The notes under the pieces were generated by a model. It was not told where the DNA came from, did no database searches, and saw only the letters and a list, made by a program, of their open reading frames with translations. The position numbers and the translations under genes are program-made. A DNA stretch of 64,000 nucleotides from NCBI GenBank assembly GCA_946902875.1, contig OX336336.1:28909558-28973557 (forward strand). The letters are read 5' to 3'. Shown here piece by piece: positions 10,382-49,885 of this stretch; the first letter of the stretch is position 1; every line of letters begins with the position of its first letter. The DNA comes from Nematopogon swammerdamellus. Its lineage: Eukaryota; Arthropoda; Insecta; Lepidoptera; Adelidae.

Positions 10382-13300
10382 CTGTCAATGGAGAAATATT
10401 CTTAACATTTTCAATGAATCGTTCCTTTGAGGAAATTGTTAGCCTCGATAGCTCGGTGGTGCATCAATCTTGTCTTTAAATATGGTTTCATATGAATTTT
10501 TTATCCCCAAAATGGGATGAGTTCTTTTGCACATACAACGCAGCTCTAATCTTTACCAATAAGTTATATGTGATGAAATTTTTTTGTGTGATATTTTTTT
10601 AATAGTTGTGTGCAGTGGGCGTCCCATCATTATTTTATTATTAGGCGTATTGCCGTCTTTTGAAGTCTCACAGTTTCTCCTGAAGGGTCCCAGAATTCTA
10701 TTCCATGATGTAACTTTGCCGTTATGAGAACATGGCTGTGTGTGCTTACCCAAAAATTCAACTGCCTCTCCGACAACTCCTTCGTAAGTCGGCTTTATGA
10801 TGATACCTCCTGCTCCTTTGTTCTTCGATTTATCATTGGACCTGAAAGCATTACAATATGCTGTACTTGGGGGGAAATGTGTGGGCAGGGAGAGCGTTCC
10901 AGAGTTTACCGGTTCTGTGGAGGAAGGATATGCAGAACCGATTGGTACGCATCCGCGGTAAGTCCAGCGTGTAGGGATGCAATTCCTACCCAGTGTGCAT
11001 TGTACGGAGGTGGAAAGTTGACGGCGCAATCGCGTCAAACAGCTCATGCGAGTACTCCCCGGAGAAAAACACACTTAGGGCGCCGGCATCCCTACGAAGT
11101 TGCAGTGGTTCTAGATCACATATAGGCGGTCCTTCAAAAGAGGCGTGAATGGTAACCTGTCAGGCCGGCATGGCATTCGCGGCCCCCGCATGCGACCGAA
11201 TGTCCATGGGTATCGCTAGACACCTTATGGGTGGTTCGGCGCAAAGTGCCGCGCTTACTATAAAAAAAAAAACATTTTCTATTTGTTACGCTGAGATTTT
11301 TGAGAAATCCTAATAATTAGATAACAATGCCAGCTAACATGCTGATGCGAAACAAATTCAGCAAATGAAAGCCTTCCGGATATTATTACGCAACCCGTTA
11401 TGTGCTGCTGGGTCAGAGGGGCCAGAGCACATGCTATGACCAGACAATATCACCTCCGAGAACGTGTCATACCGAAAACTTCTCTGTGGATTGCTGGTGG
11501 TATGAATCCAGGAGACAATTTGATGCTACCGCCTAGTAAGGGCCCAGGAAATGGTACACAGGTGTAAACAGGTTTCGAACAGTGACACAGCACGTGTATA
11601 CCTACACGTACATTTTTAAATAAGAAAAACTCGACACATATTTGGCAGATTCGAACCTTGGACCTTGAGGATGGCTCGATCACCCGCCCCTTCCGAATAT
11701 GTAAATTATGTTGTATTCAGATACTTCTCACAAAGATAATGTGCGATGCTACCGAGCAGCCGAGACTATCCGTACTGGCCACGGCTACAATCTTCGTCAT
11801 CCGCGACGACGCGCGGAGAACTGACAGTTCTCTGAAAACCGTCGCACCAGTCAGAGCGCTCATGCGTTTGTAGTCGACAGAAGAGTTCTTCGAACTGTAC
11901 GATTCTCTAAATCGTTCTTGTGTCGCACTGCAAAGGTGTGCAACGGGCTGCCAGGGAATATCTTCCCCCACTCCTACAATCCACGGATCTTCAAATCGCG
12001 GGTTAATAGCCTCTCCCCAGCAACATTAGTCCACCTCCAAGCCGGACTGGCACCTCCTCGAGGGTGAAATTGGCTGCGCCTGAGGTTGCGACCTCGGACA
12101 GAGCCACCCAGTTCGGTAGCAATAAAAAATAAATAAAAAAAGAGAAACAAAAACGAGCTCACCTAAAACGGCTGTGTGTAGCATCCGTTTCTGTGATGGA
12201 CTTGCCACCACCGGCCCCCCCGGTCGGTTCGCGGGGGGGCCTACTGGATAAAAAAGACTGCTGCTGTTGTTGCTGGCGCTCCTCCACGCTGCTGTAGGAC
12301 GAGTCCCGCACCACGTAGCTCTGTTTCACCTCACGCTTGCTGTACTCCTGTTCAAACGTTAGGTACCCATTGTCAGCGACACATCATATTATATGACAGG
12401 TGCTATCACCTGCAATGCCTATACGTCGTCGGCTTAAGGTGGAAACGACTTGACACAGGAATTGTGCAACTGAGGATAATAAAATATATCCCATTACTTT
12501 AAGTGAGCTACTTATATTCTAAAAATGGTTTCTCGGAAACCTCTCTAACCATTTGGATGAAATTTGTATCTTACACCGTTGTGGGAGAACTCCTGGCTGG
12601 GAGGTGCTGCAAGTTCAAGTTCAAGTTAGATAATTTTTTTAATGTTTATCTAGATAGTTGTTGACGCCCAGGTACTTATAATTAAATAAGAAAATAAATA
12701 TTAAATTAATCGTCGAAAGAGTGTAAGAAACGCTCCAGTATGCTAGTCTCTTGTCAAGACTGCTAAATCTGTCGTAGAGTTCTCATTTTTTAAGACCTCC
12801 ACATATTATCATCACGTGCAAAATTTTACATAATTTTGAATCGCATACACTTTGAATCGATTAGAGTGTTCTCTTCCCTTGCAGACATTTTAGTTGTGAC
12901 ACTTACTGCATGACTGTCTAAGAAAAGTGCCAAGGTGAGAGGTAGCTAGCATGTCGCCCTTTATGACTATATGAATAGTAACACAAAGGGCGACTAAGGG
13001 ATATGACTCCCTTCTTATATTACTAGGTGGTAGGGTTTAACCCGCCCGGGTTGGTACCATCGCACTGAATGAAAGGTCGGTCGAAACGGCTATGTAAATA
13101 GTTTGTGTTTTCCGTCCAGTTCAGTGTAGCCGGCACGACCGAAGGGAAGAACTGACGTGGCACCAAGTTCACCCGGTGTTATGGGCTGACATCACGGATG
13201 ATGTAGGTGAGGTAGCCAACCGTATCAGTTTCCATAAAAAAAAAAACAAGGTAACTACAATCAAGCACTCACGTATGTGTCCGAGTGTTCGGACCTCTCG

Positions 13301-15273
13301 TCCACCATGCGGTCGAGGTGTTTGTTGAATGTGTCGTGCGACATGTCGGAGAACTTGTTGAGTTGCGTGTTGCGCCGGGTCTCGGTGTCCAGTGTGCTGC
13401 GCCATTCGTCCTTCGGCTTGTCCGCTAGGCTCGTCAGCGACTCCAGGCTGAGGACAAATAAGGAATAACTTGTTGAGTTGCGTGTTGCGTCGGGTCTCGG
13501 TGTCCAGTGTGCTGCGCCATTCGTCCTTCGGCTTGTCCGCTAGGCTCGTCAGAGACTCCAGGTTGAGGACAAATAAGGAATAACTTGTTGAGTTGCGTGT
13601 TGCGTCGGGTCTCGGTGTCCAGTGTGCTGCGCCATTCGTCCTTCGGCTTGTCCGCTAGGCTCGTCAGCGACTCCAGGCTGAGGACAAATAAGGAATAACT
13701 TGTTGAGTTGCGTGTTGCGTCGGGTCTCGGTGTCCAGTGTGCTGCGCCATTCGTCCTTCGGCTTGTCCGCTAGGCTCGTCAGAGACTCCAGGCTGAGGAC
13801 AAATAAGGAATAACTTGTTGAGTTGCGTGTTGCGTCGGGTCTCGGTGTCCAGTGTGCTGCGCCATTCGTCCTTCGGCTTGTCCGCTAGGCTCGTCAGAGA
13901 CTCCAGGCTTAGGACAAATAAGGAATAACTTGTTGAGTTGCGTGTTGCGTCGGGTCTCGGTGTCCAGTGTGCTGCGCCATTCGTCCTTCGGCTTGTCCGC
14001 TAGAGACTCCAGGCTGAGGACAAATAAGGAATAACTTGTTGAGTTGCGTGTTGCGTCGGGTCTCGGTGTCCAGTGTGCTGCGCCATTCGTCCTTCGGCTT
14101 GTCCGCTAGGCTCGTCAGAGACTCCAGGCTTAGGACAAATAAGGAATAACTTGTTGAGTTGCGTGTTGCGTCGGGTCTCGGTGTCCAGTGTGCTGCGCCA
14201 TTCGTCCTTCGGCTTGTCCGCTAGAGACTCCAGGCTGAGGACAAATAAGGAATAACGTGTTGAGTTGCGTGTTGCGTCTGGTCTCGGTGTCCAGTGTGCT
14301 GCGCCATTCGTCCTTCGGCTTGTCCGCTAGGCTCGTCAGAGACTCCAGGCTTAGGACAAATAACGAATAACTTGTTGAGTTGCGTGTTGCGTCGGGTCTC
14401 GGTGTCCAGTGTGCTGCGCCATTCGTCCTTCGGCTTGTCCGCTAGAGACTCCAGGATGAGGACAAATAAGGAATAACTTGTTGAGTTGCGTGTTGCGTCG
14501 GGTCTCGGTGTCCAGTGTGCTGCGCCATTCGTCCTTCGGCTTGTCCGCTAGGCTCGTCAGAGACTCCAGGCTGAGGACAAATAAGGAATAACTTGTTGAG
14601 TTGCGTGTTGCGTCGGGTCTCGGTGTCCAGTGTGCTGCGCCATTCGTCCTTCGGCTTGTCCGCTAGGCTCGTCAGAGACTCCAGGCTGAGGACAAATAAG
14701 GAATAACTTGTTGAGTTGCGTGTTGCGTCGGGTCTCGGTGTCCAGTGTGCTGCGCCATTCGTCCTTCGGCTTGTCCGCTAGGCTCGTCAGAGACTCCAGG
14801 TTAAGGACAAATAAGGAATAACTTGTTGAGTTGCGTGTTGCGTCGGGTCTCGGTGTCCAGTGTGCTGCGCCATTCGTCCTTCGGCTTGTCCGCTAGGCTC
14901 GTCAGAGACTCCAGGCTGAGGACAAATAAGGAATAACTTGTTGAGTTGCGTGTTGCGTCGGGTCTCGGTGTCCAGTGTGCTTCGCCATTCGTCCTTCGGC
15001 TTGTCCGCTAGGCTCGTCAGCGACTCCAGGCTGAGGACAAATCTGGAATAACTTTTGAACAAGTAAATATTCAATAAGGCTAGCTGAATCAGAGGAGCCA
15101 GAACAAGTGCTCCCATCAGCCACTATCACTTCAGAGAAGGTGTCATTTTTTACTTTCGAGCGACTGTAAGGAGAAAGGACGTATAGTAATCGTCCAAAAT
15201 TTCGAAGTTGAGATTTCGACTGATTTGGGCTATATATCATTCAACGATCCCAAAAAAGTGGTTTTGAAAAACA

Positions 15274-15310
<37 letters not shown>

Positions 15311-18300
15311 GTCCAGCGACCATGCGCCTCAACCGCTCAACCCATTTCGTTCAAAATTCTTATTTGGTAGTTTGAAACGATTATCTAGGGGTACCCTTTT
15401 TTAGTGTTTTTTTATTCAAAAAAATAAGGGTAGCTGTCATACAAATTATTTTGATAAGATAGATTTTCTCAAAAATGGCTCTAACGATTGTTATTATATT
15501 TTCCACATAGAAACCATTACTAGACTAGAAAGATAACATTACCAGTTTTTCCAGGAAAACTCAAAAAAAAGGTGGCTGTCATACAAACGAAGGTTTCTTT
15601 CTATTAAATATTGCATACAAAATGTTTGTTGCGAGCGCCTATCTAATTCAACGGAACTGTCCTGTCAGTATATTATTTTGAATTTCGAACATAAAAACCT
15701 TGAGTTCGCCAAACAAGCAAGAAAGTCAGTGAGGTATTACCCTACCATTTCTTTTTTAATTCACATTTTCGATTGTCGAAGATGCGTGAGGGATGTGATT
15801 TAACTGTTGTATTTAACGATCCGTTTTCTCCGTCTGTCCTATGGGGAAACAGGCTTGGCATTATATGCGGTGTATTTCACACAAACACGCGCTGATTAAA
15901 TAAAACAAGTAGGCCCCTTTATTTCCGTATCCCGTACGGAAGCCTATTACTAAGACTACGCCGTCTGTCTGTCTGTTTGTCTGTCCGTCCATCCGTCTTT
16001 TTTAATTTTTTTTATGTAATCCGGTATGGGTGGCTGAGTCAGAGGGGCCAAAGCAGATGCTCTGGCTAGCCAATATCACGTTCGAGAAGGTAGAGGTAGG
16101 TGCCACACCGGAGACTTACCTGGATTGCTGGCTATACTGGACTAGAGGAGAACACAACCGAGGCTGCTATGCGGCCATCTTACATTCAGTCTGACTGTCC
16201 GAGGGCTGTATCTCGTGAACCGTAATAGGTAGCCCGTTGAAATTTTTACAGAACATGTGTTATTATGGCGGATATAACAACAAATAATAAAAAATCGAAA
16301 AAGTAAAAAATTAAGGGGTTCCCATATAAGAAACGCGTTTTTTCTTTATGATTTTTTTGATGGTGCGGAAACCTCGGTGCGCGAGTCCGACTAGCATTTG
16401 GCCGGTTTTTTGGAGTACTGCGCGCACTTGTGGGATGGCTCAGCCAAATTCCAGCTTGTGCCTTTGGACTCGATCCAGCGTCGAGCCGTGCGACTAGTGA
16501 CCTCGAAGTGTCCCGCGATCTAGAACCACACCACAACTTCGGAGGGATGTCGGCGCTCTAAGTGCGTTCTATCGCTTATTCCATGGGGAATGCTCGGAAG
16601 AGATGTTTGACGCGATCCCGCAGTCCCCTTTCCACCTCCGCACAATGCGCACTGAGCAGGGATTGCATCCCTATACGCTGGAATTACCGCGGATGCGTAC
16701 CAATCGGTTATGCTGATCTTTCCTCCACCGGACTGGTTAACTCTGGAATGCTACCGTGTGGGGTCGGTACTTAAAAAGAATAGCCCCACTGCATCTCTCC
16801 CCGTCGCATGTCGTAAAAGTCGACTAAGGGATAAGAAAATTCGTCAGCCTCGGTAGCTCAGTGGCGCGGTTGGTTAGTCAACTGTTATTAAGCAACGCTG
16901 AGCGCGGTCAGTGATTGGATGGGTGACCGCTCGACCGTTGGAGGCTGACCGTGGTTCGGATTCCACGTTAAACTGTAGGCCCCTTCCCTTCTTACCTTAC
17001 TAGGTGGTAGGGTTTATCCCGGCCGGGTTGGTACCACCGCACTGAACGAAACGTCGGTCGAAACGGCTATGTAAATAGTTCGTGTTTTCCGTCCAGTTTA
17101 GTGTAGCCGACATGAAATGAAGGGAAGCACTGACATGGCACCTAGTTCACCCTGTGTTATGGGCTGACATAGCGGATGTTGTAGGTGATGTAGCCAACCG
17201 TGTCAGGTTCCATAAAAAAAAAAAAAAAAGAAAAAAAAAGGCTCTCCCTGCCCACATATTATTCCCAAAATATAGTATCAGGTCCTTTAAGAGAGGCGTG
17301 AATAGGCACCTGTCAGGCCGGCATAACATTCGCAACGCCCGCGTACCACCGAATGTTCATGGGCGTCGTTAGACACCTTATGGGTGGCTCGGCGCCACAT
17401 GTCGCTCTTTCAATATAAAAGAAAGTCTATACGTTGAAACATGAAGTTACCTGTTATCGCTGAGCAAACGGCGAGTCTTCTCTATGGCATCCCAAGAATC
17501 TTTCCGGCCTACGAAGGGCTTCCCACCAGGATCGCCGGCACCTGTGGAAGTTCACAGTTTTCTTCATCCATACAGCATACATTTCGACCATGTTGCTGAT
17601 TTAATAGCGGGGTGGCTGTCTGCGCCCCCACGACGCAGGGCGAGGCATGGCGCGCCACAGCTAGATGACCAGGTGAGGCGCGACGACCGACTGACGAAAG
17701 CAGACGCCGGGGCGATTCGGGACGCGAGGACCGGGGCGACAAGTCGCTGTTTGTGACGTTGTCTCCCATCAGGGACGCAGACTGACGGACGCAAGACGTA
17801 GATGGGGACATTCTTCGGAGTCGGTGCACTCCAAGGGGGGGGGGGGCTCAGAACGCCTTTATGAGTCCCTCCAAGGGGGGGCCGGACCGCAGTCAATGCG
17901 CGTCACCGGGACCAAATTGGTGGTATCCCGGCAGCAGGCCTCCCTGCGTGCAACGACTTTCAAATGATTGTTCCATGATGAAGTTGTGACACAGTGCGGG
18001 TGCTATGGCCGCAAGGCTGGTGCGCTCGGGTCAGTGGCGGGTTAATATGTGCTGATTTAATAGCACCAAACCTTAGATCAGGAAACCAAACCAAGCACAG
18101 GTATAAGAGGAACAAGGAAAGGGTTGAGAAAGTAATGTTTCTGTGATTCAGCCACATTGGAAGAATAGATGATAGAAGAACAATGAAAGAGATTTATGGC
18201 GCTAATATGAGCGGAAGAGTCAGGAAGAGTCGCCCCAGACGTGCGTGCCTGGATCAGATCGGGCATGTGCTAAAAAATGATCAAGGTCGTGTACCCATAA

Positions 18301-27300: not shown

Positions 27301-30300
27301 TGTGTTCTCCTCTTTTTTTTTTTTATTGAAACCGACACGGTTGGCTACATCACCTACAACATCCGTGATGTCAGCCCATAATACCGGGTGAACTTGGTGC
27401 CACGTCAGCCTTCCCTTTGGTGGTGCCGGCTACACTGAACTGGACGAAAAAAACACAAACTATTTACATTGCCGTTTCGACCGACCTTTCATTCAGTGCG
27501 GTGGTACCTACCCGGGCGGGTTAAACCCTACCACCTAGTAATATAAAAAGGGAGTCATATCCCTTAGTCGCCTTTTCGCTCTTCCTCTGGTCCAGTATAG
27601 CCAGCAACCCAAGAATCTCCGATGTCTCCGGTAAGGTACCTTATTATTGCGCTTGTTGGAGCAAGTGTTTTCACTTCTTTGACTCCATCCATATCGGATT
27701 GCATAAAAAAATGCAGATGGTGCCGACACTCAATGTTAAAATGTGTACACATCACTCGAAAGCGTCACCGTTGGCATCACCAAATCGCAATTCAATGCAG
27801 CCCTGAAACATCTTCGTGGTCTCGGTAGAGATAAAATCCTTCCTTACCTATAATAAAATCCAACGTCTGCTTTCTGTCTGTCTGAGTGTCTGTCTGTCCG
27901 CTTATAACTCGAGAAGCACTGAACCGATTTTAATAAAACAAAATTCTACGGATAGCTTGATTCTTCCCATCAACTATAGGCTACTTACTATCACGCTAAA
28001 TAGCTTATGAGGTTAGCAGTGAAGTGAAATATGAGAGCGGGCGGAGCCGCGGGCACAGCTTGTATGTACTACACGTCAACTTATTGATGTCTACCGCGAA
28101 GCGCTCAACTCACAGTGAAATTGGTGATGGGTCTGTCGAGCCTCGAGTTGACCCAGTGGAGAGTGGCGCGGAAGCCTGGCGAGCCGGGCCTCATGAAGTA
28201 GGAGAGGTACGTCATGCCCGACAGCTCGTCCAGCCAGGGCGAGGCGAGGTACTCCGGCTCCAGCACCATCGGGATGTCGAACTCGCGGTGCGCCAGGCGC
28301 ATCGCTCTCGAGCAGTTCTCAATAGCTTCGTGTCGATCTGCAAGAATAGAATAGAGTACAATAGAATACAATATAATAGAATAGAATGGAATATAATTGA
28401 ATAGAATGGAAAATAATGGAATAGAACGGAACAGAATGGAATAGAATTAAATGGGATAGATTGGAATAGAATGGCATAGAATGGAATAGAATGAAATAGA
28501 AATGGAATGTAATGGAATTGAATTGAATAGCATGTAATAGAATGGAATAGAATGGAATAGAATGGAATGCAATGGAATAGAATGGAATAGAATGGAATAG
28601 AATGGAATAGAATGGAATAGAATGGAATAGAATGGAATAGAATAGAATAGAATGGAATAGTATGGAATTGAATTAAATAGAATGGGATAGAGTGGAATAG
28701 AATGGAATATAATGGAATAGTATGGAATTGAATGAAATAGAAATGAAATGGAATTGAATTGAATGGAATGGGATACAATGGAATAGAACAGAATAGAAGA
28801 TAATAGAACACAATAGAACAGACCAGAATATAGTATAATAGAACAAAATAGAATAGAACAGAAGAGAACAGATTTTTTTTTTATCTAAACTGAGACAGTT
28901 GGCTACATCACCTACAACGTCGGTGATGTCAGTCCATAACACCGGGTGAACTAGGTGCCATGTCAGTGCTTCCCCCTTTGATCGTGCCGGCTACACTGAA
29001 CTGGTCGGAAAACACAAACTATTTACATAGCCGTTTCAACCGACGTTTCATTCAGTGCGGTGGTACCAACCCGGGCGGGTTAAACCCTACCACCAAGTAA
29101 GATTAGGAGGGAAGGGACCTACAGTTTTACGAGGAATCCGAACCTCGGTCAGCCTCCAACGGTCAGCGGTCACCCATCCAAGTACTGACCGCACCCAGCG
29201 TTGCTTAACATTCAATAGCGACAGTTGACTGTCTGCACCACTGAGCTATCGAGGCTGACAGAATAGAATAGAATAGAACAGAACAGAATAGAATAGAATA
29301 TAATAGAGTCGTATGATGAGAGAATTCCCAACATGGATATGGAGAGGGGTGATTCCAAACATGTGGTGAAAATTTGTCCTATCCGCTCCGTAATGAAAAA
29401 AATGAACGTTTTCCATATCCCAAAGGGTAATTAGTAAAGAATGCCGCAAGGCATTAAACTCGTGTTTTGTGACCCCTTGATACTGGTGAACAATAAAGTA
29501 TATTTTCATTTAATTTCAAGAATAAAGTGCACTTACTCAGCTCGCGCCAATCTGGGAAGATGCCCGGGCGACAGTAGTCGAGCAGAGCTGAGAGCAGCAC
29601 TCCGCTGTTCCAGTCCGTGGTCAGGTTGCCGACGCGACACTCGGGGAGCGCTGCCTGCAGCCAGGACAGCATCAGCTTCCTGCAACACCAGGTACCGGCA
29701 GCGTTAGTTCCGTAGTCTAGGTACTACGACTACAAATTTGCAAATATTATATAATTGTTCAAATTTTTATATTGGAAGCCTAAATAACTCTGCTATTTAT
29801 AACTATCCCAAATAAAACCAGAATGCCGGTAGTTTTAAAAAAAAAAATGTTCAGGTCTATTTTTTTCTAAAAAAATAAATGACTCCGATTTTTTTTTCTT
29901 ATTTTTCCCTGGGTAGTTATAACCTGGCCTACTCCCTGGTTCCGGCTTGACGTTGAGTTTTGGGACACGTTGTATAATAGAAAAACCCAAAAATCTAAAA
30001 ACCTATGTAACATGAAATCAAGATTTAATTAGTGCTGTAAAAGAGTCAGTGACTGCACCATCTGACCCAACTCATAAGCGTAACCACCAATGCCGCGAGC
30101 ACAGACGCGGGAAAAAGTTCCTAATACATATATCACTTTCTTGTGCTCACTCGCCATACAGCATTTAAAGATGACCGACAACGCGCCGACGAGACGACGC
30201 CTTCCAAGAGTTCGCTAATTGATGTAGCAATGACCGTGGAGCAAGCACACAGCATAGATACGATATAGCGGCGAATCCGTTGGTCCACATAAAATGGGAC

Positions 30301-34162: not shown

Positions 34163-34319
34163 CTTGGATTGCGTCACTGCACTCGCATCACTGAGACATT
34201 CACTGGTATCTCACTGTCGTCTGTCTTTCACTAAATTATTATTTCACTCTCACAGGTTCGAACACATTCTGAAAAGTTACGAGTGCCAAATCAAATGTAA
34301 ATTATACTTTAGAACTTAG

Positions 34320-34715
34320 GGTTGGAAAAATGTATACGCTTTAGAACGAATGGTTGGGAAAAGGTATATGCTTTAGAACGAATGGTTGGGAAAATATATA
34401 CGCTTTTAAACGTATGGTTGGAACCAAAGTTGGAACAGTGATAGGCTTTAGAACGAAAGGTTGGAAAAAGGTAGGTATACGCTTTAGAACATATGGTTTG
34501 GGAAAAGGTGTACTTACTCTTTACAACGAATGGTTGCAAAAAGGTATACGCTTTTTAATGAATGATTAGAAAAATGTATATGCTGTAGAACTAATGGTTG
34601 GAAAAAGTTATGCGCTTTAGAACGAATGGTTGGAAAAATGTATACGCTTTAGAACGTATGGTTGGCAAAGGTATTCCGCTCTAGAATGAAGGGTTGAAAA
34701 AAGGTATATACCCAC
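34320..34715. repeat. ~31-bp minisatellite upstream of jbug start
   Basis: About 13 imperfect units of TTTAGAACGAATGGTTGG followed by GAAAAAGGTATACGC. Lies 160-550 bases upstream of the start codon. Confidence 0.9.
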
Positions 34716-45825: not shown

Positions 45826-46050
45826 CTGTTTATTGTTTATTGTTTATTGTTTATTGTTTATTGTTTATTGTTTATTGTTTATTGTTTATTGTTTTTGTTT
45901 ATTGTTTATTGTTTATTGTTTATTGTTTATTGTTTATTGTTTATTGTTTATTGTTTATTGTTTATTGTTTATTGTTTATTGTTTATTGTTTATTGTTTAT
46001 TTAGCATCTATTGGCAGTACACTGCGCTCAGATTTTAGACCTGTAGCGCT
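45826..46050 (-). repeat. Expanded heptanucleotide LINE tail (TTTATTG)n
   Basis: About 24 copies of TTTATTG, one imperfect, at 45829-46003, then TTAGCATCTATTGGCAGTAC and ACTGCGCTCAGATTT. The latter is the reverse of the type d RTE tail at 18790-18853, so the heptamer is an extended retroelement 3' tail. Confidence 0.85.
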
Positions 46051-47175: not shown

Positions 47176-47558
47176 GACGGCTGGCGGAGGTGCGGGGCGC
47201 GGCGCTGCGGGAGGGCGAGTGGTTCTAATAGCGCACCAGGCTGCCGCGCTGCCACGCGGTGTGTGTATGCATTGTCTCGAGCAGTTTCTTATTTAATACC
47301 ATTTCATAATATTATGTAGATTTACTTCGTTGGGTATCTATTTGATTAATTTTAGGTGCAAACCTATGTAAAAAAATGTGTTGTTGCGAGTCGATGTTAG
47401 CGGATATTTACTTAACTGAAGTTTCTATTTGATTTAAGTTAATTGATCGTGTGTTTATTATATTGTACGTAGTGTAGTATGCGCGCAATATTAGCGAACA
47501 GATTCTTATTTTTACCCGACTACGGCGAAGCGAGAAGGAAGGTTATGTGTTTGACCGG
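47176..47558. other. Unassigned; GC-rich then AT-rich
   Basis: GGCGGACGGCTGGCGGAGGT near 47170-47260, later ACCCGACTACGGCGAAGCG just before the microsatellite, a common lead-in of lepidopteran (GTAT)n repeats. Confidence 0.5.
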
Positions 47559-47657
47559 TATGTATGTATGTATGTATGTATGTATGTATGTATGTATGTA
47601 TGTATGTATGTATGTATGTATGTATGTATGTATGTATGTATGTATGTATGTATGTAT
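47559..47657. repeat. (GTAT)n microsatellite, left part
   Basis: Uninterrupted tetranucleotide run up to the hAT-like element. Confidence 0.95.
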
Positions 47658-48317: not shown

Positions 48318-48602
48318 GTATGTATGTATGTATGTATGTATGTATGTATGTATGTATGTATGTATGTATGTATGTATGTATGTATGTATGTATGTATGCA
48401 TGCATGCATGCATGCATGCATGCATGCATGTATGTATGTATGTATGTATGTATGTATGTATGTATGTATGTATGTATGTATGTATGTATGTATGTATGTA
48501 TGTATGTATGTATGTATGTATGTATGTATGTATGTATGTATGTATGTATGTATGTATGTATTTATGTATGTATGTATGTATGTATGTATGTATGTATGCA
48601 TG
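48318..48602. repeat. (GTAT)n microsatellite, right part
   Basis: Tetranucleotide run with a (GCAT)n patch at 48398-48429. Apparent long Met-Tyr-Val-Cys open frames are artefacts. Confidence 0.95.
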
Positions 48603-48919
48603 TTCATCTGTTCCCTCAAACATAACTTCGAAACTACCTACTTATCATAATTTGAAAAAATCGAAGGTATCGTTGGATGCGTCTTGACCGTCTGCTGGTT
48701 GACTATGGTTGGCTGGTTGGCTATGTGACGTCCCATAAAAATGGGATATGGCGCCCTCTAGAGGACATAAAGTGATGACCTAAAAAAAATGTTTTTAGTG
48801 TGGGGTATCAAATGAAAGGGCTTAATTAGCACATTTCAAAAATTTATATATTGTTAGCTGTTGCTTTCGGATTTGCTTGCATGCATCCGATAATTGCGAA
48901 TAATTTCTAAAACCTATCT
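48603..48919. other. No feature recognised
   Basis: Spacer between microsatellite and the 100-bp array; GTTGGCTGGTTGGC near 48708. Confidence 0.45.
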
Positions 48920-49288
48920 ATCTGTCACGTGAACCTTTGTTTTGGTCATAACTCGAGAACCAGTGGTGCTAGACCCATCGTGTTGGTACTCAAACTTCAT
49001 GTCTCGGTGAGATCTATCCATCTGTCACGTGAACTTTTGTTTTGGTCATAACTCGAGAACCACTGGTGCTAGACGCATCGTGTTGGTACTCAAACTTCAG
49101 GTGTCGGTGAGATCTATCCATCTGTCACGTGAACATTGGTCATAACTCGAGGAACACTGGTGCTAGACCCATCGTGTTGGTACTCAAACTTCAATTCTCC
49201 ATGAGATCTATCCATCTGTCAGGTGAACTTTTGTTTTGGTCATAACTCGAGAACCACTGGTGCTAGACCCATCGTGTTGGTACTCACA
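48920..49288 (+). repeat. 100-bp tandem array, forward arm (about 3.7 units)
   Basis: Units start near 48921, 49021, 49121, 49215 with TCTGTCACGTGAAC, then GGTCATAACTCGAGAACCAC, GGTGCTAGACCCATCGTG and CTCAAACTTCAGGTCTCGG. Confidence 0.93.
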
Positions 49289-49885
49289 CAGATGGATAGA
49301 TCTCACCGAGACCTGAAGTTTGAGTACCAACACGTTGTGTCTAGCACCAGTGATTCTCGAGTTATGATCAAAACAAAAGTTCAGCTGACAGATGGATAGA
49401 TCTCAGCGAGACTTGAAGTTTGAGTACCAACACGATGGGTCTAGCACCAGTGGTTCTCGAGTTATGACCAAAGCAAAAGTTCACGTGACAGATGGATAGA
49501 TCTCACCGAGACCTGAAGTTTGAGTACCAACACGATGGGTCTAGCACCAGTGGTTCTCGAGTTATGACCAAAACAAAAGTTCTCATGACAGATGGATAGA
49601 TCTCACCGAGACCTGAAGTTTGAGTACCAACACGATGGGTCTAGCACCAGTGGTTCTCGAGTTATGACCAAAACAAAAGTCACGTGACAGATGGATAGAT
49701 CTCACCGAGACCTGAAGTTTGAGTACCAACACGATGGGTCTAGCACCAGTGGTTCTCGAGTTATGACCAAAACAAAAGTTCACGTGACAGATGGATAGAT
49801 CTCACCGAGACCTGAAGTTTTGAGTACCAATACGATGGGTCTAGCACCAGTGGTTCTCGAGTTATGACCAAAATAAAAGTTCATG
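49289..49885 (-). repeat. 100-bp tandem array, inverted arm (about 6 units)
   Basis: Units start near 49289, 49389, 49489, 49589, 49688 and 49788 with CAGATGGATAGATCTCACCG, the reverse complement of the forward arm. Arms meet at about 49287 with no spacer. Confidence 0.93.

Follow-up and report, generated by a model that had tools for sequence, protein, structure and literature searches.

The jbug-like gene and its exons

The window, the whole 64,000-nucleotide stretch of DNA analysed here, carries on its minus strand what is, by its predicted domain layout, a jbug-like filamin gene. In Pfam, the pieced exon translations gave CH matches over three stretches, and two of the three translations matched Filamin. 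Jbug-type filamins are characterised by three CH domains and then filamin repeats, and the name jbug is used on that basis. A protein search with the part of the query covering these exons (1791 candidates scored) returned a single homologue, a 1095-residue Leptidea sinapis protein, unnamed in the public record, that is 53% identical over 95% of the query part. Judged by this relative and by the overall character of the window, the genome is probably lepidopteran. This protein maps exon by exon to the minus strand from 34162 to 10203, alongside some weak chance rows. The exon behind a tandem array that dominates the region is the 16th in the mapped order and its upstream neighbour has a donor boundary at 17451, which agrees with a preliminary description that had placed the array before jbug exon 16 and the end of exon 15 at 17451. 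The introns flanking the true exon are 4003 nt (upstream) and 925 nt (downstream) long. The region is organised as follows.

17451..17541, minus strand: upstream coding exon (15th mapped), 91 nt, donor CAG and then GTAACT (CAG/GTAACT); Leptidea residues 868-896
15053..17450, minus strand: unrepeated part of the intron, with YTNAY matches at -34 and -45 relative to the AG of unit 1
13355..15052, minus strand: array of 15 units (22 nt of intron 3' end plus 93 or 84 nt of exon start)
14938..15052, minus strand: unit 1, CAG acceptor, first exon base 15030, three private differences
14708..14822, minus strand: unit 3, acceptor lost (TAA)
14372..14477, minus strand: unit 6, 106 bp, acceptor lost (CAT)
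13815..14477, minus strand: units 6-11, a higher-order repeat in which a 221-bp dimer (106-bp unit, then 115-bp AAG unit) occurs three times
13470..13584, minus strand: unit 14, the decoy adjoining the true exon, acceptor lost (CAA)
13355..13469, minus strand: unit 15, where the true exon starts (base 13447) after the true acceptor, CAG
13273..13447, minus strand: true exon (16th mapped), 175 nt, donor TAC/GTGAGT; Leptidea residues 899-947
12163..12347, minus strand: next coding exon (17th mapped), 185 nt

The assembly holds 22 filamin matches: nine on the minus strand of contig C4, which includes the window, 11 on C30 (10 of them within 3609505-3649976) and two on C2. Two of the C4 matches lie in the window and the other seven at 28867642 to 28830179, 42 to 79 kb beyond it; these seven presumably belong to the array-bearing gene. 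The 20 kb adjoining the window at lower coordinates contain no clear filamin exon among frames of at least 45 residues inspected by eye, and none of the listed filamin matches falls there either.

The window encompasses several other repeats. A 526-bp pyrimidine-rich pentamer array (ATTCT/ATTCC, minus strand; 28343-28868) forms the polypyrimidine region of another jbug exon and ends three bases before its CAG acceptor (28340-28338), making it a second acceptor-side array in the jbug-like gene. A 32/64-bp minisatellite (34303-34709) is found some 140 bp upstream of where the mapped jbug coding exons begin. At 48914-49883 one 100-bp unit forms two tandem arrays that run in opposite directions and meet at about 49287, with arms roughly 93% alike. 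There are also a minisatellite of 57-bp period with 8.6 copies and a higher period of 109 bp (292-772), GTAT tetranucleotide arrays at 47558-47657 (25 copies) and 48318-48603 (71.5 copies), and a TGTTTAT array of 25 copies (45827-46001). The only RNA-family match in the region, to SCARNA7 over a TG repeat at 15176-15316, scored 25.7, well short of the gathering score of 65, and we take it as chance.

Structure, growth and variation of the acceptor array

The array comprises 15 head-to-tail units on the minus strand from 15052 to 13355, 12 of 115 bp and three of 106 bp. Fourteen are extra copies, here called decoys, and the last is the start of the true exon. Each 115-bp unit consists of the last 22 nt of the intron and the first 93 nt of the exon, and the 106-bp units have an 84-nt exon part, with 9 bp missing from the exon-derived portion. 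This count bears out the claim that an acceptor and the start of its exon were amplified about 14-fold before the true exon, in units of 115 and 106 bp that are all 1 mod 3 in length; the figure of about 93 coding bases per unit, given for all units, applies to the longer ones and fails for the shorter. TRF delimits the array at 13352-15058, with a period of 115, 15.1 copies, 94% matches and a score of 3099. With up to three mismatches allowed, the window contains 15 matches to the 20-nt acceptor core, compared with a mean of 0.01 in 100 shuffled sequences. A search of the whole assembly (699,432,277 bases, 39 contigs) reported no unit outside the array; all reported matches, at least 15, lie inside it, and the search thus listed no intact duplicate of the exon at another locus.

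The commonest form of the 22-nt intron end is GTTATTCCTTATTTGTCCTCAG. This stretch is exactly the same in eight of the 15 units, and that of the true acceptor recurs in seven of the 14 decoys. Units 2, 4, 5 and 12 are identical to one another, and the exon-derived sequence is near-identical across all 15. Such identity, together with the fact that tandem arrays are a known weak point of assemblies, could mean that the number of units is inflated or wrong, and one amphioxus array of this type appears to have been aberrantly assembled in the genome draft (part of PMC3087553). We nevertheless consider an assembly artefact very unlikely. The 39 contigs for 699 Mb suggest long reads able to span 1.7 kb, and the differences between units (a dimer pattern, a 9-bp deletion and changes private to single units) do not resemble random errors. 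The exact number of 15 may still be off from the truth.

The sequences at the array's edges and joins point to its probable origin. The intron flank reads TTCAAAAGTTATTCC and the exon reads CTCAACAAGTTCTCC; 13 of the 14 internal joins read AAGTTATTC, and the join after unit 7 is ACGTTATTC. From these sequences, the first duplication most simply joined two AAGTT sites. The segment duplicated in tandem between these 5-bp microhomologies would have taken in the last 22 nt of the intron and the first 93 nt of the exon, and the array may then have grown by single units and by pairs (221 bp), via slippage or unequal exchange. The threefold 221-bp dimer in units 6-11 shows past copy-number change and indicates that growth also proceeded two units at a time.

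The acceptors differ between units. CAG is found in nine units (1, 2, 4, 5, 8, 10, 12, 13 and 15) and AAG in three (7, 9 and 11), and the AG is absent from the remaining three (TAA in unit 3, CAT in unit 6, CAA in unit 14). Eleven decoys keep an AG, eight of them within an intact CAG. With the true acceptor, the AG-bearing units have their first exon bases at 15030, 14915, 14685, 14570, 14349, 14234, 14128, 14013, 13907, 13792, 13677 and 13447. With six of the 14 decoy acceptors altered or dead, the gene presents nine CAG and three AAG acceptors, not the same CAG in every unit and about 15 near-identical acceptors as first described. The private differences of unit 1 include an AG at -14/-13, against TT in units 2-15; either state may be the older. 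As regards homogenisation away from the edges, unit 1 has three private differences and unit 15 has one, but the inner unit 7 also has three.

Ten of the 115 alignment columns vary, requiring at least 12 changes (a minimum estimate: distinct states less one, summed over columns). Four of these fall in the three columns of the acceptor triplet, giving a binomial P of 1.9e-4 with the triplet fixed beforehand. The pattern was noticed before it was tested, and P rises to 0.016 in 20,000 simulations that let the best triplet lie anywhere. Counted by columns the enrichment is weaker (two of the 10 variable columns, P 0.027). The 22 intron-derived columns are likewise richer in changes than the exon part (seven of 12, Fisher P 0.006), and within them the acceptor triplet still stands out (four of seven, P 0.0086). 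Alternative counts, on which we do not rely, give five of 13 changes (P 1.3e-5), four of 11 when neighbouring changes are merged (P 1.3e-4) and, in a version chosen post hoc, four of five when the private changes of units 1, 7 and 15 are left out (P 2.3e-6). The clustering hints that selection acts mildly against live decoys; it could also stem from a mutational hot spot or from homogenisation of the exon part.

Reading frame and probable choice of the last acceptor

Joining the upstream exon to unit 15 leaves the frame open through the next exon. This holds for one of the 15 acceptor choices: all 14 upstream choices meet an early stop, and skipping the true exon also gives a stop. The claim that splicing must reach the last acceptor for an open frame is therefore upheld. 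For 13 of the 14 upstream units the stop lies within the lengthened exon, and for unit 14, which adds a single unit and has an acceptor without AG, it lies in the next exon (position 304, compared with a 290-nt exon). The first stops for units 1-13 are TGA in six cases, TAG in three (in 106-bp units) and TAA in four, the last created by the altered acceptors of units 3, 7, 9 and 11. A TGA at the unit start had been proposed for every choice with two or more extra units; it is found in six of these 13 and replaced by TAG or TAA in the other seven. The Leptidea sinapis orthologue has a single copy of the segment and likewise reads on as ..NS|L.. over the corresponding exon junction, so use of the last acceptor matches the orthologue.

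The near identity of the exon-derived sequence in all 15 units might be read as a sign that the array is coding, with an isoform that carries several units as protein repeats or with units serving as alternative exons. This reading is hardly credible. Every unit is 1 mod 3 and each of the 14 inclusions runs into a stop, so simple inclusion closes the frame and coding repeats in the protein are ruled out; the near identity would be explained by recent amplification. The units also lack a donor-like GT. On an approximate matrix, the best GT in the array scores -1.9, compared with 5.1, 1.7 and 4.7 for three real donors, the low value of 1.7 being that of the true exon's own donor. Units without a good donor are unlikely to act as separate exons, and by the same approximate matrix, applied to the GTs of the array and to the three donors, separate exons or recursive splicing inside the array are ruled out. 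Mutually exclusive exons that arose by tandem duplication have one acceptor and one donor per copy, and the donor scores (-1.9 against 1.7 to 5.1) set the array apart from that class. When an intron is gained because an AGGT site was duplicated in tandem, the duplicate provides a donor as well as an acceptor, and units without a donor-like GT do not fit this class either.

Unit 1 alone keeps the original branch-point surroundings, with YTNAY at -34 and -45. Judged by this motif, the original branch-point region likely lies before unit 1, within 15053..17450. What precedes units 2-15 is copied exon sequence in place of the original intron. Each of them has a CTNA match (CTCA, with its A at -27) in the copied coding sequence that is a plausible candidate branch point. 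A strict YTNAY in units 2, 3 and 15, taken as examples, occurs only at -12 and was judged too close.

We propose, with a probability of about 0.78, that the array is a boundary minisatellite (a 'mirage') that arose through microhomology and is excised as intron, with the last acceptor used through its position. In the normal mRNA, the upstream exon would be joined to the last acceptor and the other 14 units would leave with the intron. The transition to exon definition occurs at an intron length of 200-250 nt, and exon definition favours the sites closest across the exon (sections of PMC9225289). The flanking introns (4003 and 925 nt) exceed that range, so exon definition is expected and should favour removal of the 14 units, the acceptor nearest the exon's donor being preferred. 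That acceptor is the last one, which is the live acceptor closest to the donor and defines a 175-nt exon; the next live acceptor, in unit 13, would define an exon of 405 nt. Since unit 14 is dead, the nearest live rival lies 230 nt further upstream. Exon definition would thus select the last acceptor by position and not by local sequence, and for the seven decoys identical to the true acceptor over 22 nt position must decide.

Four points count against this proposal. When 3' splice sites of equal strength compete between two long introns, the preference for the upstream one is significantly reduced and no more than that (as reported in part of PMC9225289), eight decoys have an intact CAG, the original branch-point surroundings are those of unit 1, and the true exon's donor scores low on the approximate matrix. 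Some leakage to the decoys would be expected, the mis-spliced RNA would decay, and mild selection against live decoys could follow. The preliminary description saw an unusual demand on a cytoskeletal gene here, and this is too strong, as exon definition is expected and amphioxus offers a precedent with regular RT-PCR products.

The leakage could itself have a function. A steady fraction of transcripts would use a decoy, meet an early stop and be degraded, and the array length would set the amount of full-length protein. The AG is kept in 12 of the 15 units, all 11 AG-bearing decoys give an early stop, and four of at least 12 inferred changes fall at the acceptor triplet, as expected if live decoys are costly. 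We regard such a functional attenuator as quite unlikely: a cost is not a function, and amphioxus mirages are reported, in the parts of that literature cited here, not to disturb splicing. A version that invokes selection, in which live decoys cost filamin and alleles with mutated decoys are favoured in an array of variable length, is also improbable, if slightly less so. Were it true, the decoys would have been silenced one by one, including the one beside the true exon, and the array length would be a dosage setting.

Boundary minisatellites in amphioxus, human and an insect

By its sequence anatomy the jbug array is a mirage of the amphioxus kind, filed there because it clearly shows three of the four testable features of mirages; for the fourth, escape of the edge units from homogenisation, units 1 and 15 and the inner unit 7 give a mixed picture. 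Mirages are tandem units of 10-160 bp that span an intron/exon boundary (PMC3087553, in part). In BflGb6 they repeat the 3' intron end and the 5' part of the exon in units of 150-160 bp, with six and three units in two haplotypes; the splice signals are found in many but not all copies, and RT-PCR suggested regular splicing (same source and extent). Mirages were also described in BflGb9, Adh3, troponin C and PGBD5 (parts of PMC3087553 and PMC3902484, the latter adding PGBD5 and citing Adh and troponin C).

Like mirages, the jbug array has units that span the boundary (15 of 15), unit sizes inside the 10-160 bp range (115 and 106 bp) and an AG kept in many but not all copies (12 of 15). As in BflGb6, it is exactly the 3' intron end and the 5' exon part that are repeated, and both arrays have signs of turnover. 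Unlike BflGb6, the jbug array has 15 copies (against six and three) and shorter units, and resides in an insect. It further differs from the amphioxus mirages in that its changes are apparently concentrated at the acceptor, and its splicing is predicted here from DNA, that of BflGb6 having been followed by RT-PCR. What stands out is the higher copy number than in BflGb6 and the apparent clustering of changes at the acceptor; the anatomy was already known from amphioxus.

Other systems share single aspects with the jbug array. A human interferon-induced minisatellite, reportedly in the 6-16/IFI6 gene, is said to contain many copies of one splice donor site (work listed among the references of PMC2572611); it repeats one splice site like the jbug array, but donors instead of acceptors. 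In human genes within segmental duplications, tandem repeats at exon-intron boundaries alter gene structure, and these variable repeats, averaging 30-bp units and four copies, can form novel introns (PMC2812944, in part). The jbug array likewise sits at an exon-intron boundary, but its units have no donor and its frame forbids inclusion. In the laboratory assay of Reed and Maniatis, position decides between competing splice sites (as described in part of PMC9225289); the jbug array would be a natural, 15-fold counterpart. Literature searches directed at insects or Lepidoptera, with other wordings and subscription journals outside their coverage, each listed only the amphioxus globin paper.

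The jbug array suggests that boundary minisatellites, described from amphioxus and human in the papers cited here, occur in insects too, where they could disturb gene annotation. If its decoy acceptors are truly lost more quickly than other positions change, the array is a record of selection against mis-splicing. It also amounts to a natural test of how cells choose one frame-preserving splice site. With nine CAG, three AAG and three dead copies in a row, and eight of the 15 sharing an identical 22 nt, position is the main variable left, and junction counts would therefore directly test the donor-nearest choice of exon definition.
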